NCBI GenBank assembly: GCA_022393335.1
Contig: JAJEKB010020951.1
Span: 166,165-230,164, forward strand
Origin: Macrotrachela quadricornifera
Taxonomy: Eukaryota; Rotifera; Eurotatoria; Philodinida; Philodinidae
DNA: 64,000 nucleotides
Direction: 5' to 3'
The position numbers and the translations under genes are program-made. Positions 1 through 54,430 of this stretch are shown piece after piece. The notes under the pieces are model-generated. The model did no database searches. It was not told the origin of the DNA and saw only the letters and a program-made list of their open reading frames with translations. How positions within the stretch are numbered: position 1 is the first letter of the stretch; each line of letters opens with the position of its first letter.

Positions 1-1309
1 ATGTATCACTTTGCATTGATGCATTAAGAAATAATCTGAATACAGTGTAGAAATGTTAACTGACAATGTTAAAAATATACTAGTTTCTTTCTGCTACTTA
101 TACTCAAGCCAATACATTTTATATGGGTCAATAGAGACTTTTAAAAGCAAAAATACGCCGATTTTTCAATACTTGTTAATTGAAGATGTTTTTATTGTAT
201 TAAATTATTTTCTGATAAATAAATGCAAAGTGACTTTAAAATGTATGGGATAATAAAGAATTTGAAGCTCTATCAGAATATATAATTATTTCGTAAAAAA
301 AGGTGTTTCCATATTATTGAAAGATATAAAAACCTGGAAAGACCGTATTTGGGAATGTAAACATGGAGGTACCTTCATTATACTCAATTTGTTTCTATAT
401 TGTTCAAGCATAAACTAAAATACAAATACAGAAGCCGGTATAGAATTTCATGTATTATCAAAGAGTATAATTAATTTTTTTTAAATATTTTTAGAAAATT
501 AGCAGCAGTAAATATATCATGATTAATACTGGAAGGATTGTACTAATAGCTTTTTTTAATCAGAAAAAAGAAAAGGGATAAAAGTGAAGTTCTTTTTATA
601 GGAGTTGTTAGAGAAACAGAACTGAAAGCTTCACTGGAATACATATTATTCATCTAAGATTTGTCCAGTTTGTAGATCTTCGATCAATGATTAATTGAAA
701 ATGCATAGTAACAACTTTCTAAACAGTTATGCTCTTAACAAGATTATTTGAAAAACTTATGAAAAAAATCAGATCATGATATATTATGATACATGATTCA
801 ATGCATCTATATCTCTTTTTTTCAACAATGAAAACCATAATTATCTATTTTGGTTCTAACAAAACTTCTTCAAAAAATTACTCATTTGACCTCTTTTGTC
901 AAAAATGATCCTTATATAATAGTGACACATAAGAATAGGATAGATCCTATCCTCTATTTTAGTATCATGCAATTAGTTGAAGTACAGAGTAGAAAATAAT
1001 ATTCTTTCGACTGAAGGGAGCGTGATACGGAAAAAAGTAAGAGTTTCAGCAAAGATTTTCGGAGTCGAGGAATCGATCATATTGGTTGAAATTAGGTGGT
1101 AGTTTGTCTGTATATTTATATATCTAAACCAATTGGAGAATGTAGTCAACTAGATTAAGACCCAATCCCCCACGCAAAATTTTATTTTTGCCTTAAAACA
1201 TCCAATCTTGACGAAACTTTCAGAGGAAATATATCTTGGGCTGGGCACCTCGTGGTAAAAATTTGAGCTTGAAATATTAAGCCTTTCAAGAGACAGCTTA
1301 AGATTACGG
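1..1309. other. intergenic, no gene seen
   Basis: AT-rich DNA without an ORF that looks coding or a set of phase-compatible exons. The only local structure noted is a short palindrome around 938-955 (AGGATAGATCCTATCCT). Confidence 0.6.
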
Positions 1310-1665
1310 TTCAAAATAGAAATCTTCGTGCGTCTCCGATTTCTCCACCATTTTAAATGCAACGAAACTCAAGCTGGTTTTAAAATGTTTCCAAGATTTG
1401 GGGCTACAACTTAACAGAGTTCGATTTTTTAATTTTTCTGTAGTTTAGTTTTTAAAAAACTTCTTCGGCATGATATGAAATGAGTAGAGTGTAAGTTCCC
1501 AAACATTTTCTTCTCGCCTGACATCAATCATGAAATGGAGAAATCCGACTCTGTTAAGTTGTAGTATCAGATCTTAGCTACGATTTAAAATAAACCCAAG
1601 CTTTTTAACTTTCAAAATGGCGGAGAAATCTGAGACGCACAGAAACAGAAAATCTCAATTTTACA
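1310..1665. repeat. imperfect fold-back element
   Basis: Two diverged inverted arms face each other. CTACAACTTAACAGAGT near 1405 recurs in reverse complement near 1547-1563. GTGCGTCTCCGATTTCTCC on the left (about 1329-1348) matches AGAAATCTGAGACGCAC on the right (about 1623-1643). The centre is unpaired. It resembles an old MITE or fold-back transposon; no transposase and no clear target duplication were found. Confidence 0.55.
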
Positions 1666-1840
1666 GAAACCTAAAATACTTTTTAGAAGTATATTTCATG
1701 GCTTTTCGCCTAGTACTAGTGTTTTTCTACTATCTTAAACAATAAAGAGCCATCTAAATTACATGTGATTAATGAATAATATGACAGAAATGTAACTAGT
1801 ATTTTTAAAATTTGAGATAACGGTGTTCATATTTCGATAA

Positions 1841-2102
1841 TCAATTATCACTATCTGCTTCATAAATATCAGTAATATCACCATCCGATAGTTCTAATGT
1901 AATATCATTCACAACACAATCGTTGTTTTCCTCATTTTGGGTATATGCAATTTCATCATCACTTTCAGTTAAAACAGTACTTGCAGCAACTATTGCTGTT
2001 TTTTTTGCTCGTTTTAAATGTCCTTTTTTAGTTTGTGAAACACAAGAATTTCTCAAAATATCAAGATGTTCGAAAGATGTCGTTTTTCTTAAATAAAGGT
2101 TT
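1841..2102 (-). CDS. orphan acidic coding fragment
   Basis: An open minus-strand frame runs from a possible splice acceptor (CTCTAG, just above 2102) to a TGA at 1841. The translation starts NLYLRKTTSFEHLDILRNSC, has a lysine-rich middle, and ends in an Asp/Glu-rich tail (DITDIYEADSDN). Codon choice looks coding, but there is no ATG at its head, so it would be a last exon or the remains of one. I do not recognise a domain. The mix of a basic patch and an acidic tail would suit a nuclear or transposon-derived protein, which is only a guess. No upstream exon could be assigned. Confidence 0.3.
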
Positions 2103-2110
2103 CTAGAGAA

Positions 2111-5100
2111 ACCTCTCTAAAACTCTTAAAATCCATCGTAAAATAAATAAACTATAGTGGATTCGGTAGCGGACGTGATTCTCTATCATATATGCTATTT
2201 AAAAAGATCGATAAATTTGACCAAAATCAACTTTTTTTGGGTGTGAGCTGAGCCTTAACGTAAAAACATTCAGAGTCAAATTGGAGTTTAATAAGTGAAT
2301 AAATAACTAATAGTTAGTTTTATTAGTTTTCTTAAAACGTTTGCTCCAAGATAAGCGAAAATCTATAGGTTAAGAAGATTTTTCTTTGTTGGCTACTATA
2401 CATGAGATCTTTTGGGTAAGATTTATATAAACATATGTTAAATGACAAAATGATCGCTTGAAGTCCTGTGTCTAGTCTTCATGGGCATTAGCCATAAAAC
2501 GACATTCAAAGTCGACGAAGATTCTTCCTAGAGCACAATGTAAGCTACCCTATTCAATAGCAATTTTTAAATAATTTCCTTTTGCTAAATTTCTTCTTAG
2601 TGAGCATATTAATAAATGCCCAGTAACTTTTCAAAAGAAATTGAAACGAGATACATCTATTGGTTTCAAAGCTGAGCTCATATTGAACGACTAGATGTTG
2701 ATTTGACAAACTTGTTAATACTGTTATGACTGATAGTTTGAGTTTTTTGAACATTTCAGGTAACGCAAGCTCTTCAGTAGAGAACTGGTGAATGCTAACA
2801 CGACGTTATTTGTTTATAATACAGTAAAGAGGAATAGATATGCAGTTATACCGTCCGAAAAATGGTCAGGAGCTCTCCATAATTCTAATTGAAAAAAAGA
2901 AACTTTTACTTTTGAAATAATGATGATTTGAGTTGAGGTCATCTGTATTCCAGGTTGGTTATAGTACGAAACTTGATCATCAACTGCCAATATCTGAGTG
3001 ACATTTAATTCAGGTTTCTTAAAGGAACAATTGTATAGCGAAAAATATCGCGTATAAAAGATCAAAAATGCTGGTCTATCTATGCGTTCAAACAAATCAG
3101 AGTTCAGACTTACAAAATACGATATGTCGAACAATTTGACATAACTAGATATCTGTAATAAACTTAATCAGATTTAATCGAAGGCAAAGAACTCGAATTA
3201 GAGGTGTATTTTTGATGATTATACAACGTTTGTAGAGTAAATATCTAGCTGAGACTAAGGGTACGCACTTTCGAGAAGTGTTTATCTTTGAAAGGCGATC
3301 AATATTTTTCATAAAATCTATCTTATCTGATTATCCTAGTATATTTTTTAACATAAATAAACTTGATTGTTGCATATATACTCAATCTCTCAATCGGTTA
3401 CAGAATTTTTTCGAAGTAATCTGTTTTCTTTTTTCTTGCTGAATGCTCGTAGCACCTTGTTTATTGACTATTTCGGTAAGAAAATCACCGTTAGCATTGA
3501 ATTCTTATGAGCACATTATTATTCCAACTAATTTGTCCTTTATGTCATTGTTTATTCTTTGCTGATATTTTCTATCATTGAAATATATTAGTGATCAAAA
3601 TCAGATACATTCGGTTATATAGCTATCACTCTGATAGAATCAGAAAAAGTACAGTGAATAAACTATTGAACAATTTATTAAGGCTGAATGTGACACCGAC
3701 TAATTATATATGGTGCATTGAAGCTACGCTGATAAATGAATAGGTACTTGAACGATAGATTTATTGAAAGTATGTAAAACTAGGGTAGGAGCTTATAGAG
3801 AAAGTATCATTAATTGAATTTTTACAGAAAATATAAATCTGCATAATATCCATATTGTAATTAACTTGATCTAACAAAAGACATACTGTAATACTTTTCT
3901 AGCTAAAGAAAAAAGTCAGCGATTCTTAGTTTAATATGTAGTTCTTTATTGAAACCGTTATTATGAGAGATCGTTGAAGATTACTGTTTACACTAAAAGG
4001 ATATTGTATGAAACAGCATATTTGACAATAATGCACAGAATTACTGATTAGACAAATATGATTTTCATTTTAAAATTTTAAATCATTAATATTTTTATTG
4101 ATGCTTTCTCAAAATCCTACTAACTTTTATTCTAATTCGATTTTCACTTTATTGCATGTTTAAATAATATCAAATTAATAAGTCAAAGACTCATATTTTT
4201 CTTCATAGAGGCTCGTTTTTTTCCTAATTTTATACATTCTCTCAAATCAATTTGCTAAAATAAGTAAAGATTTACTTTCAACATTGGTATTGCATTCTAA
4301 TCAAAGTATAAATTACAATGTTTGCAGTGCATCATAATATTTTAAAAGTAAAATACATAAGAGTACAGAAATAATCAATCGGAGTTTTCATAAAACTATG
4401 ATAAATTTACTTCAATATTTTTTATAGATGACGAAGAAGAGTTGTTTTAAACAACATTACACCTTATATTTCATAGTTGACTTTAGAGTGCAGACAGGTG
4501 ACATCTGATGACCAATGCGTTACTCAGCTTCACGTTTTGATAACGCTACTTCTGCCAAAGGAAACATTGGGTCCGACTAATGTAGTTTGTATGGGTGATT
4601 ACAAGAAATTACATTTCAAAGTGGAAGAGAATATTGTTTGATATAATAGTCTGAGAATAATATTTTCAAGTTTCTATGCACAAATTCCTATTGAGTGATA
4701 GTCTTTGACATAGATATAATAAATAAGATTTATTCCATGAAGAAGTAAATTAAAAGAATAATTATCATTTATATATGAATCACAGATAGCAAATATTTCT
4801 ATAAAAACATAATAGGTAAAGAATGGACGTTGGCTTTCTATCTTTCAAATGATTAAGAAGACTGAAATATAAAATAAACGATCTTTAAAACTATAGAGCT
4901 TTTCACACTGCATTTCATGATATGTTTTATTTTTTACTACAACGTATTATGTGAATTAAAACTGAAATGCTAGGCGTACTCATGTAATCTGCCCTACTGG
5001 GAAGTTAAGTTTCAATAAAAACAGTTTTTATCAAAATTTTATTGTGATGATATCAATTGAACAGGGATCAAATAGCATAAAAAAATAAGATACTCACGAC

Positions 5101-30630: not shown

Positions 30631-31419
30631 TATATATAATGATTCAGTGGCCGCGGAATGTTACGTAACTACTACTTTCATAAGTTATCTTGGAAAAGCC
30701 GCAGCTATTATTAGTAGCTAGCCCTCTAAAAGTCGCTACGGAGCACTTTGCCAGTCCGTAAAAAGCTATAGGAAGCATGTGTTCGTATTAAACATAATAC
30801 TACAAAAAACAACGCCAAGGCATTAGAAATATGTTTGAAAGTCGTTTTTCGACTTTTAATAGAGATGAAGTAGTTGTTTTTGAGGAAAATTGGGATTTGG
30901 ATTTTTCAAGTTTGAGGCGTACAGCCGGCAGTAGCGATGTTCCCTACATATTTTGCATATATACAAAAACCCTATAAAGTGGTCTACCATGGTAAAATTA
31001 TGGAATTATAGTCACTTAGTTGCCTCAGTCCTGTAACAATTCGTCTTCTCTCTTAGTGCATTGTTTCATCTCTACCTAAATCTGTAATAGCAGAACTAAG
31101 AATGTTCAGAATAAGTGCAACAATGGAGACAATTTTGGTGAGTACACAATCAGTATTTCAGTAATTATACCGCCAAAGCACATTCGCGTAGAAAACAAAG
31201 GAAACATTTTTACTATTTCCTATTTTTCACATCACGACTTTATTGCAGTTTTTTTCATACGGGAAAAAAATCATCACGAAACGTAAGATGTACTTATGAA
31301 ATATCAGAAGAATACAACATAGTGAAAAAAAAATAGGCGTCATCATTAAGTCGATACATTACGTCTGGAAGGATTTATACCAAAAGAAAAAGGAAAAAAT
31401 GAAAGTTAAGTGAGAATGT

Positions 31420-31918
31420 TATAGAGCTTGTCCAGCTAACGCGGGACCAGCGTGGCCAAAGTTGAAGTTCNNNNNNNNNNNNNNNNNNNNNNNNNNNNNN
31501 NNNNNNNNNNNNNNNNNNNNNNNNNNNNNNNNNNNNNNNNNNNNNNNNNNNNNNNNNNNNNNNNNNNNNNNNNNNNNNNNNNNNNNNNNNNNNNNNNNNN
31601 NNNNNNNNNNNNNNNNNNNNNNNNNNNNNNNNNNNNNNNNNNNNNNNNNNNNNNNNNNNNNNNNNNNNNNNNNNNNNNNNNNNNNNNNNNNNNNNNNNNN
31701 NNNNNNNNNNNNNNNNNNNNNNNNNNNNNNNNNNNNNNNNNNNNNNNNNNNNNNNNNNNNNNNNNNNNNNNNNNNNNNNNNNNNNNNNNNNNNNNNNNNN
31801 NNNNNNNNNNNNNNNNNNNNNNNNNNNNNNNNNNNNNNNNNNNNNNNNNNNNNNNNNNNNNNNNNNNNNNCGAAAGATGAAAAACGGTGAGTGCGTTACC
31901 TGTGGACAAGCTCTATAT
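31420..31918. repeat. inverted repeat enclosing an assembly gap
   Basis: The 400 Ns (31471-31870) are flanked by inverted copies: AGAGCTTGTCCAGCTAACGC on the left and GCGTTACCTGTGGACAAGCTCT on the right. The gap therefore sits inside a fold-back element of roughly 0.5 kb if the N length is right. ORFs drawn across the Ns have no meaning. Confidence 0.65.
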
Positions 31919-31960
31919 AAAGTCGATTGATTTAAAAACAAGCGAAACATTTGCATTCAA

Positions 31961-44699: not shown

Positions 44700-45714
44700 A
44701 CATTGTCAAATGTTTGCGCTCTTGTTTTTTCCTTTAGCATTCCTCAAACATTTTCCATAGGTCATACATCTGCAAATTTTGCATCTCCATCATCTGGCTC
44801 GATTTTTTCTTCAAAATGATCAGCAATAACATTCAGAGCGACTTTAGTTCGATGTTTTGAGTCTTGATCATCTTGAAATATAAATTCATCTAGATCTTCT
44901 ACTACTTCAGCAATTGCTGGAATAGCTTCTTCGTCTAAAAATTTAGCATATAATTCATCAGTCATGTAAAATCGTTTAGAATTATTCTTTGGACGTTGAT
45001 CTCGTAACCATTGAGTAAAATTTATTGGACCATCTTGTGGTATTAACCTTTTCGTACAAATTGCACCCCAGAACAAAACACCAACTGGATATTTTGAAAT
45101 CGACGCGTTTCTTAAATCAGGAGAAATTTCAGATGAATTTTCGGCATACACCACGTCATTTTTACTATTGTAATAACCTTCAATTGTAAATATACCTGAA
45201 AAATCAGTATTAATAATTCTGTTCTATTGCCATTTCGACCTAGCTTTTCTTGCACCGAATTTTTTTTGATTAATTGTTTCGCACAAGCAACACGTCGTAC
45301 TCTATTCATTCTTGATAGTTTTTGAGCTTTTCTTAGTTTAAACGGCTTCAAATTTAATTCTTTAGTTACTCGTTACACCAACGTTTTTTCACCTTTAATA
45401 TTGTTACGTTTTAAATAAGATACGACTTTTCTTTAGCTTTGACCTCTTGTTAAATGTAACAAACGTTTTACTGTTTTTTTCAATTGTTTTGTTCGAACAG
45501 TTCGTGGTACTCCACATCTTGGTTTATCTTTTATTGTCCCTCGTTGTAATATTCGATTTATTTTTCTTCTTAATGCATCACGACGTAATCGAGGTGGATT
45601 TTCATAAGATTGTACTTCATCAGCAATATCACATGCCATCCACGTAGGATTCATTTCCTTCAAAGAAAGAACGAGTCCTCGAAATTGTTCCTCCAAACTA
45701 ATGCTGGTTGACAT
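44700..45714 (-). pseudogene. broken mariner/IS630-family transposase
   Basis: Minus-strand frames give a helix-turn-helix N-terminus from an ATG at 45714 (MSTSISLEEQFRGLVLSLK, later RRDALRRKINRILQRG). A basic middle segment follows (about 45351 down). The catalytic half is from about 45205 down, with TDFSGIFTIEGYYNSKNDVV, PVGVLFWGAI and FIFQDDQDSKHRTK. Breaks seen are two in-frame stops in the linker (near 45435 and 45372), a frameshift near 45210, and two TGA codons where the family has tryptophan (the first at 44762, after FADV; then in PMENV-stop-GM). The spacing from the second Asp to the Glu of PMEN is about 37 residues. Terminal repeats were not identified. Confidence 0.85.
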
Positions 45715-52212: not shown

Positions 52213-52339
52213 TAAAGGCGACTACAAGTATTTGACCCAAGAGTAGAATATATATAGGTTTGTAGAGGACAACTTTCTCTATTCAGTGGTGCATTTATTA
52301 TGAAATTCTATTGTGCACCGTGAGAGAAAAATAAAGTAA

Positions 52340-52354
52340 AACTATATGTTTAAG
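52340..52354. repeat. 15-bp target-site duplication, left copy
   Basis: AACTATATGTTTAAG here is identical to 52883-52897. The two copies bracket the inverted-arm element exactly, as expected for staggered-cut insertion. Confidence 0.75.
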
Positions 52355-52440
52355 TTGTAATTTGTTAAGGAAGGACATACTAATTCTATTTAATGTTTGA
52401 ATACTCTTCCTTGAAATAAATAATTAATTTAATTCTCTGT

Positions 52441-52473
52441 GACGTTTCGGTAGGTCGAAGCCTCCTTCGTCAG
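52441..52473 (-). ncRNA. hammerhead ribozyme motif, left arm
   Basis: Minus strand: CTGACGA core, a stem II formed by GGAGG and CCTACC (bulged A) with loop CTTCGA, then GAAA, C, and GTC at the expected cleavage site. Stem III is only two base pairs (AC/GT). Such minimal type I hammerheads in Penelope-like elements are thought to work as dimers. The sequence is identical to the right-arm copy. Confidence 0.7.
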
Positions 52474-52794
52474 ACTTTTTTATTGATAGAAAATAAAATA
52501 AAAATGAAACTAGAACATTTCACACACTTTTATATATTCATTCTATTCTTCTAGTAATTTCTGTCTTTTTCTTTCCTTTTCTTGTTTTTCTATTGTTGAT
52601 AGTGGGTCGGAGGAGAATGGCAAATAAGAGTCACTCCTACCAGCTATCACCGTCTTGCCGACCCACTATCAACAATAGAAAAACAAGAAAGGGAAAGAAA
52701 AAGACAGAAATTACTAGAAGAATAGAATGAATATATAAAAGTGTGTGAAATGTTCTAGTTTCATTTTTATTTTATTTTCTATCAATAAAAAAGT

Positions 52795-52827
52795 CTGACG
52801 AAGGAGGCTTCGACCTACCGAAACGTC
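52795..52827 (+). ncRNA. hammerhead ribozyme motif, right arm
   Basis: Plus-strand copy of the left-arm motif with all invariant core bases: CUGANGA at 52795-52801, GAAA at 52820-52823 and GUC at 52825-52827. Predicted cleavage is after C52827. Stem I would be short and interrupted, so activity as a monomer is doubtful. Confidence 0.7.
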
Positions 52828-52897
52828 ACAAAGAATTAAATTAATTATTTATTTCAAGGAAGAGTATTCAAACATTAAATAGAACTATATGTTTAAG

Positions 52898-54430
52898 AGG
52901 AGGTTCTCCAGAAAACAGGTACTCGGCTACAGAAAAATTTATTTTTGGGTTTAATTACTTGAAAATAAAGGTCCCATTTAGTTAGTACTAAATCTAAAAT
53001 ATTAGCTTTTTCTGATCATTCTTTACTGAATTTTGATATGCGTCATGATAACAACTCTTATATATGAAAACTGATAAATCTTGAGATTTTATAATAAATT
53101 TTGAAGAAATAGAAGATTTTGTGTAGTTTTAGTGAATAGTTGTATTTTTAATAAGAAATGGAAATTTTCGATCTTAAACGATCATTATCAACCTTTTAAA
53201 CACGACCTTATATACAAGATATTAAAACAAAACATAAACCAGTAGAAGAAAACACGACAAACATGAACATAATGACAAATTATGATTTTCAATACAAAAC
53301 AGACATTAACTTAACTTCAATAACCATTAACTTCATTAACTGCTGTTGTAAAATATCCAATACCTATGTATCTGCACATTAATTTTACTCAAGATGATAA
53401 GTACTACTTTGTATAATAATATATGAAAACTGATAAATCTTGAGATTTTATAGTAAACTCACACATCCTCACCCTCACCCACACCCCACTGAAATAAATA
53501 TATTTTTAAAAAAATATGCTTTTTGCAGCAGTTATCTCTTTATTTTCATATATCTATGCTATTTGATCACCATTTAGCTAATTCTATAATAATAGAATTT
53601 TGATAAAAATTATTTTTATTCACACCTAGCTGGTTATTTTCGATTGCAATGGATGTAGTACTTTTGAATTACATTTTACCAGTTTGTCATCGTTTATCCA
53701 GTTATATTAAAACCCAGTATATACCACATGATGCAGCGTGAAAAGCTCTACATTTAATAAAGGGCTACTTATTTTATAGTTGCACCTGTTTGTTTTCAAA
53801 ATAAGCAAAATTCTGAGTGACCAAATTTCGATATTATAACGTATTAAATGACGAAAAAATGCAATACCAAATGTTCCATACATTATGATCTGAAACAACC
53901 AACTAGATATCAACAAAATTACTTTTTATCAAAATTCTATTATTATAATATTAGATAAACAGTGATCGAATAGCATAGAGCAATAGAGCAAAATACGCTC
54001 TATCTTTTTATAAAAAAAGAATTTTTTTTTGAGTCCTCTGTAAGTAAAAAGAGTGCCACTATCACTACTTTTTGATCGCCTTAAGTAAGAGCTACGACAG
54101 AAAGAAACAAACACATGTATGAACTTACGTATATTCGGAAGAATAGAAAAAGCTGACTGTATAACGTTATCATATTTTTTGTTCATTCGCTGTAATTGAA
54201 ATACCATATCACAACATACAAAAATGTTTCGGCCCATCACTAGGTGGGTCCTACCGATGCAATTCATGGCCATGAAAGGGTTAATCAAAAATAATCTTTA
54301 GAAAGAAAAAAAAATAAAATAATTTTGCATTAATTTAATTTAACTTTATCTGACTGATGAAGTGTTTGCTGATGTATAACAATTTATTGAGCTGCAATAA
54401 AAAAATAATGTCGATTCTTTGCAGCCGAAT
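52898..54430. other. intergenic with shared sub-repeat
   Basis: No gene. 53722-53830 carries GATGCAGCGTGAAAAGCTCT and TCAAAATAAGCAAAATTCTG, also found in the elements at 33329-34101 and 62584-63537. A decayed member of that family is likely. At 54421-54442, CCGAATCGGTCCCATCTCTA resembles a hAT-type terminus. Confidence 0.45.

Follow-up and report, generated by a model that had tools for sequence, protein, structure and literature searches.

Cervera and de la Pena 2014 and Lunse 2017 are reportedly the sources for the minimal type I hammerheads of Penelope-like elements (PLEs). These hammerheads are known from the pLTRs of PLEs and from Terminons, have no non-conserved nucleotides in helix III, and may act as a dimer (PMC7761336, in its available text). 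The Penelope elements of A. vaga (Pen2/Pen2a_Av and solo pLTR insertions), as described in the available part of PMC3846280, have pLTRs of ~200 bp, one of them inverted head-to-head, together with short target duplications (8-10 bp), a palindrome located at the junction and at the 5′ end of the pLTR and, optionally, a 31-bp tail at one inverted pLTR; hammerheads do not occur in the main text of that paper. Poseidon of Anolis carolinensis (PAc) carries a tail that comes from an internal start within its ORF (at ORF 111-118) and has a hammerhead that overlaps the ORF start, needs protein and is dispensable for insertion in vitro (PMC11167929). Metazoan non-LTR retrozymes, finally, are small, AT-rich, non-autonomous elements arranged as direct tandem repeats, with type I hammerheads that are mostly canonical (PMC7229834, in its available text).

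Here we describe an insert at 52340-52897 of a 64,000-nt stretch of DNA from the rotifer Macrotrachela quadricornifera (assembly GCA_022393335.1, contig JAJEKB010020951.1, positions 166,165 to 230,164), the whole of which we call the window. Like A. vaga Penelope, the insert has pLTRs of ~200 bp, one of them inverted head-to-head, a palindrome where the junction and the 5′ end of the pLTR lie, a short target duplication and a tail on one arm; unlike the A. vaga elements, it hardly exceeds its two pLTRs, and its duplication measures 13-15 bp rather than 8-10 bp. With the minimal hammerheads of PLEs and Terminons its motifs share the pLTR location and a helix III free of non-conserved nucleotides, but differ from that type, as far as PMC7761336 describes it, in having an additional A that separates A9 from helix II and a single bulged base within that helix. 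As in PAc, there is a tail from an internal start in the ORF and a hammerhead near the ORF start; the start site is codon 8 here, and in the related locus L010, described below, the hammerhead ends ~62 nt before the ATG instead of overlapping the ORF. The insert is also like a retrozyme in being small and AT-rich and in its type I hammerhead. An identity as a metazoan retrozyme was rejected, since what we found was an inverted pair attached to PLE sequence and not a direct tandem with a canonical type I hammerhead. A reading of this DNA made from its sequence only had considered a distinct non-autonomous hammerhead family; neither that nor a new kind of hammerhead element is supported, and the arms belong to the known class of Penelope pLTRs (PMC3846280). 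The layout is already published for bdelloid Penelope elements, and it is the ends of the insert that give a clue to the copying mechanism.

The insert and its Penelope-like source

The inverted arms lie at 52381-52610 and 52658-52887, are 99% complementary and are separated by 47 nt; trimmed of chance run-on, each measures 226 nt and the two are 99.1% identical, much as the sequence-only reading had described them. The 15-bp direct repeats that it placed at the flanks are likewise present: AACTATATGTTTAAG occurs at 52340-52354 (the left target-site duplication) and again at 52883-52897 (the right one). The duplication proper is 13-15 bp, because the first two bases of the right copy also end the right pLTR arm. 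In random placements, only one of 2000 boundary pairs gave a direct repeat scoring as well.

Between the left repeat and the left arm are 29 nt (52355-52383, minus strand) that constitute a PLE tail: 5 nt and then ATGTCCTTCCTTAACAAATTACAA, the first eight codons (MSFLNKLQ) of a Penelope ORF, identical in 24 of 24 nt to the ORF start of L010. The left pLTR arm (52384-52610, minus strand) has its 5′ end facing the centre and is 99.1% identical to L010 over 52384-52609. At the centre, 52597-52657 (plus strand) is PLE 3′ region from upstream of the pLTR; it forms the junction and the loop, aligns with L010 from position 3123 and contains one palindrome arm, TGATAGTGGGTCGG. The right pLTR arm (52658-52884, plus strand) has no tail. 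From 52597 to 52885 the insert is 98.6% identical to L010, and in this alignment the stretch from the loop through the right pLTR is one uninterrupted PLE 3′ end. The left half is the same pLTR in inverted orientation, followed by ATGTCCTTCCTTAACAAATTACAA and then by the target duplication.

L010 itself (contig C4134) has an uninterrupted frame of 829 codons at 619-3105 with a match to RVT_1 (E 1.1e-11). On either side of this frame is a copy of the arm, partial before it (531-658) and complete after it (to 3410), with one orientation for the two, and this pLTR-ORF-pLTR order around the ORF identifies the PLE plan. The nearest relatives of the L010 protein share 74-75% identity with it; most of the organism-labelled relatives are from Rotaria (48-55% identity), and two weak ones are from an ant and a tapeworm, a profile that points most probably to a bdelloid rotifer as host. 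In the L010 ORF the GIY-YIG domain (PF01541) gave no Pfam match at E<=10, and a GIY-YIG-like stretch is discernible by eye only; one homologue (P0042) does have PF01541, and another (P0012) is labelled as a GIY-YIG endonuclease by its source. Taken from these alignments, the window arms are almost certainly pLTRs of a Penelope-like retrotransposon that is present in the same genome. The insert as a whole is very probably a severely 5′-truncated PLE, consisting of two head-to-head pLTRs, one of them tailed, within a target duplication; for its origin we infer a two-ended event.

Several other features of the window may be recorded here. Just to the right of the insert is a 39-nt direct repeat (53060-53098 and 53419-53457; 97% identical, 359 nt apart); a long run of N, either a gap or a masked stretch, falls within 31375-31956; and a 153-aa ORF at 44762-45223 (minus strand) resembles a Tc1/mariner transposase by eye, without a Pfam match. 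Four of the ten window ORFs that were scanned scored above the Pfam cut-off, as GDSL lipase, ubiquitin, caspase and Laminin_G_3.

The hammerhead motif in the pLTR

Each arm contains the motif CTGACGA...GAAACGTC, at 52795-52827 (plus strand) in the right arm and at 52441-52473 (minus strand) in the left, resembling a minimal type I hammerhead whose predicted cleavage would fall after 52827 and after 52441, respectively. The sequence-only reading had credited each arm with a complete hammerhead core. The core letters (CUGANGA, GAAA and NUH) are indeed there in both, but “complete” is only loosely right, in that helix III is reduced to two pairs without a loop, helix I also has two pairs, and an extra A precedes helix II.

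The ribozyme letters alone are weak evidence, since a loose hammerhead pattern is expected by chance 0.36 times per window and at least two such patterns turned up in 6 of 100 shuffles. Rfam hammerhead models found no match at gathering score in the window, nor at E<=10 in 52300-52950 (the Rfam matches near the insert are to other families, mostly microRNA-type hairpins, and fall below gathering scores), and a scan of viral contigs with 25 bases of the motif found no match. What makes the motif credible is that it is conserved in other copies and placed in the pLTR of a PLE. Across 44 arms it ranks 20th of 218 by conservation, with a mean match to the window of 0.83 vs 0.68 over the 217 other columns. 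A13, A14, U16.1 and the base that directly follows the cleavage site are kept in every one of the 43 arms that cover the motif, A6 and A9 are kept in 42, and C17 is either C or T. The whole catalytic core is found in 20 of these 43 arms, including all four arms of L010 and L019, loci with long pieces of PLE ORF. U4 has been lost in 13, among them a group that reads CAGACGA. This variant occurs in the pLTRs of L021, L025, L027, L028 and L030, with the rest of the motif largely kept; one L025 arm reads CAAACGA and one L027 arm CAGGCGA, again with loss of U4.

For helix II the best register has an additional A following A9 and a bulged s16. Its five pairs are kept in 31-38 of the 43 arms, with a two-sided change in one arm only (A-T, s3-s17), and the C15.2-G16.2 pair is kept in 31. 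The canonical register for helix II was tried and rejected: the three pairs by which it differs hold in only 8, 30 and 3 of the 43 arms. Helix III, a two-pair ACGU without a loop, requires two motifs to form. On these sequence features, the hammerhead of each pLTR appears to belong to the minimal type I class, whose members may cleave as direct-tandem dimers. L012 and L013 are 5′-truncated, single-pLTR PLE copies from two contigs that resemble each other; helix II has six pairs in them and is perfect or almost perfect, and the helix III pair is C-A.

A chance resemblance to a hammerhead, or an artefact of assembly, would be in keeping with the expected frequency of the loose motif and with the state of core residue U4, where only 30 of 43 arms have T. 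Both are very improbable, given that the two arms differ from each other, that the insert has its own target duplication, that the same architecture is found on other contigs, and that A13, A14 and U16.1 never vary.

Folding energies do not favour the ribozyme, because the competing folds are more stable: the free 49-nt motif forms a TGACG/CGTCA hairpin at -10.1 kcal/mol vs -4.4 kcal/mol for the open core, and two copies of the motif reach -11.9 kcal/mol when constrained to the dimer vs -25.3 kcal/mol unconstrained. In the window, moreover, the motif copies are inverted, so that no two sense motifs come to lie in one transcript. The long hairpin that had been foreseen for either strand is borne out by the predicted minimum-energy folds: insert transcripts from both strands form a single hairpin (-378.3 and -382.5 kcal/mol) that takes up the whole sense motif in pairing with its complement, and cleavage of this copy is therefore unlikely. 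As modelled, a transcript of the inverted insert would probably go uncleaved and form double-stranded RNA instead.

Head-to-head loci across the genome

Further copies of the arm, which the sequence-only reading had suggested looking for, were sought by searching the 450-Mb assembly with the left arm (the window lies on contig C4424), and at least 48 matches were found, with direct-order and inverted layouts both present. Nineteen loci were taken as inverted. They amount to about 14 independent loci, given their shared flanks and neighbouring ORFs: flanks 90-97% alike make apparent alleles or duplicated contigs of L017/L022, L029/L032, L034/L040 and L035/L038 (in L034/L040 only the insert and right flank are common to both), and L011/L014 have neighbouring ORFs in common. 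In L034 and L040 the right flank is 97% alike over 1.3 kb and the left flanks differ, perhaps reflecting a rearranged allele. L037 was dropped from all counts (99.96% the same as L036), and L020, L023 and L024 stand outside the 19, with only ~15-17 nt of a second arm past the palindrome. The arm alignment omits the short second-arm pieces of L011, L014, L015, L016, L022, L029 and L032; L015 was left out of the conservation analysis and the trees, and two arms below 95 nt were left out of the trimmed tree.

The junction is largely the same from locus to locus. The 3′ region of L010 has, at 3116-3197, overlapping inverted repeats (GACGGTGATAG/CTATCACCGTC and GATAGTGGGTCG/CGACCCACTATC), and one of the window arms starts where the palindrome has its first arm (query position 14), the other where it has its second (position 76). 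A probe made from the window junction aligned in one piece, comprising the loop and part of both arms, at 15 of the 19 inverted loci; these palindrome-joined loci are the window, L009, L011, L014-L019, L022, L025, L027, L034, L036 and L040. At the other four (L029/L032 and L035/L038) the probe did not align in one piece. L014 and L015 retain few bases of one arm, and L022 enters masked sequence. When the 44 arms were ranked by conservation, the top eight of 218 33-column segments were on the second palindrome arm and on the beginning of the pLTR. The inverted repeats at L010 3116-3197 lie next to the block with the strongest conservation in the pLTR region and may be an RNA structure for copying or insertion.

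One junction position common to 15 of 19 loci, together with the finding of several inverted inserts on two contigs, would be understandable if the inverted hammerhead dimer were a distinct non-autonomous family, mobile as a unit. The inserts that recur share their flanks, so they look like alleles or duplicated contigs rather than new insertions, and in L019 the inverted pLTR is joined to pieces of the PLE ORF. The arm tree (42 trimmed arms, with two arms from each of ten inverted loci) also speaks against such a family, which we consider highly unlikely. At four of the ten loci (L009, L018, L019 and L036) the two arms are each other's closest relatives, from which it follows that head-to-head pairs arose repeatedly, in several PLE lineages. 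Within L018, L019 and L036 the arms are far nearer to each other (98.5, 99.5 and 85% identity, respectively) than to those of any other locus (at most 82, 76 and 75%). Gene conversion could be an alternative source of this likeness. The earlier reading had offered template switching during reverse transcription or a distinct non-autonomous family as the origin of the pair; reverse transcription stands, and the family gives way to the identification of the arms as PLE pLTRs.

The remaining loci are less tidy. The window arms are 99.6% identical to the 3′ pLTR of L010 vs 99.1% to each other; the arms of L017 share only 88% identity, and one of them shares 90% with L010; L025 and L027 give a mixed picture; and one arm of L034/L040 is nearer to L023 than to its partner. 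At L017, L025, L027 and L034/L040, then, at least one arm is nearer to another locus than to its own partner. An untrimmed tree had given 95% for the window pair; this was owed to the inclusion of flanks and tails, and the trimmed tree replaced it.

The outer ends of the inserts are more regular. With up to six mismatches allowed in scoring a tail, 14 of the 19 loci (11 of the ~14 independent ones) have one outer end 0-4 nt past codon 8 of the ORF, and none of the 19 has both outer ends there. Those without a full tail are L015, L016, L022, L035 and L038, with a short tail piece on one arm in L035/L038; in L019 the other arm continues into the ORF. L020, L023 and L024 have no tail at the same threshold, and including them brings the count to 14 of 22. 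In L011, L014 and L027 the tail-less arm is truncated inside the pLTR. Among pairs whose arms both extend to the end of the pLTR and include one full tail, the other arm was, by eye, tail-less in seven cases of seven, a small sample of our own choosing (the window, L009, L017, L018, L025, L034/L040 counted as one, and L036); L035/L038, with its short tail piece, would make an eighth. If each arm were tailed half the time, the pattern in all seven would be expected once in 128.

Target repeats measure 13-15 bp in the window, 13 bp (one mismatch) in L017 and 11 bp in L025. The share of random placements that matched the repeat was 0.05% for the window, 0.4% for L017 and for L025, 2% for L040, 4% for L034, 5% for L018, 6% for L036 and 6-7% for L035/L038; at L009, boundary comparison gave no target repeat. 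The repeats of the window, L017 and L025 are thus good, those of L034/L040 weaker, and those of L018, L036 and L035/L038 close to chance. This variable length is unlike the fixed-length duplication of a DNA transposon. Long inverted repeats between direct repeats are, to be sure, what a MITE-like DNA transposon would present if its terminal inverted repeats were long, but with target repeats that vary, an ORF tail on one side only, and copies in direct order that flank a reverse-transcriptase ORF, we give that interpretation almost no credence.

Formation of the pairs

How the pairs are made is less certain. We favour, at even odds, a reading of head-to-head insertions as the traces left by two-ended target-primed reverse transcription, with a different fixed start site for each strand. 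The protein of the element would nick both target strands, and, with PLE RNA as template, the left 3′ end would then prime a cDNA starting at codon 8 of the ORF and the right 3′ end one starting at the pLTR end; these same-sense cDNAs would anneal through the palindrome at the 5′ side of the pLTR, and repair would close the join. Since same-sense cDNAs can pair only by way of the palindrome, the location of the junction fits two-ended priming. A tail on one side that ends at a fixed codon is hard to obtain by copying one arm from the other, and is natural if the strands are primed separately. A lizard PLE protein, when purified, cleaved and extended both target strands and used internal starts whose spacing corresponds to the tail (PMC11167929); no strand difference in start site is reported there, so that study leaves the single tail per pair unexplained. 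In the open-licence PMC literature we found no proposal of two-ended priming for inverted pairs.

The published account of palindromes at the head-to-head junctions of A. vaga (PMC3846280, in its available text) is self-priming: antisense PLE RNA or cDNA folds back at the palindrome and copies the second arm, and the element would still be a Penelope. At the loci described here, too, the palindrome sits at the junction, and the arms of the window, L009, L018 and L019 are 98-99% identical within each locus, both of which suit self-priming. A fold-back copy, on the other hand, ends where its template ends, and yet only the left arm of the window has the 24-nt ORF tail; the single tail is found again at other loci, where it stops at the same codon; and if one arm had lost its tail later, the loss would need to have stopped near the pLTR end every time. 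We therefore regard self-priming, the main rival model, as possible but rather unlikely.

Should two-ended priming prove true, the conservation of the palindrome would be explained by its role in joining the two cDNAs. The one-tail pattern offers a means of separating antisense self-priming from two-ended priming by sequence. The inverted ribozyme pair seen here is a by-product of Penelope retrotransposition and not a separate ribozyme element, tempting as the latter reading is. For the rotifer itself, a long double-stranded RNA that matches an intact-looking pLTR would be a plausible source of silencing small RNAs.
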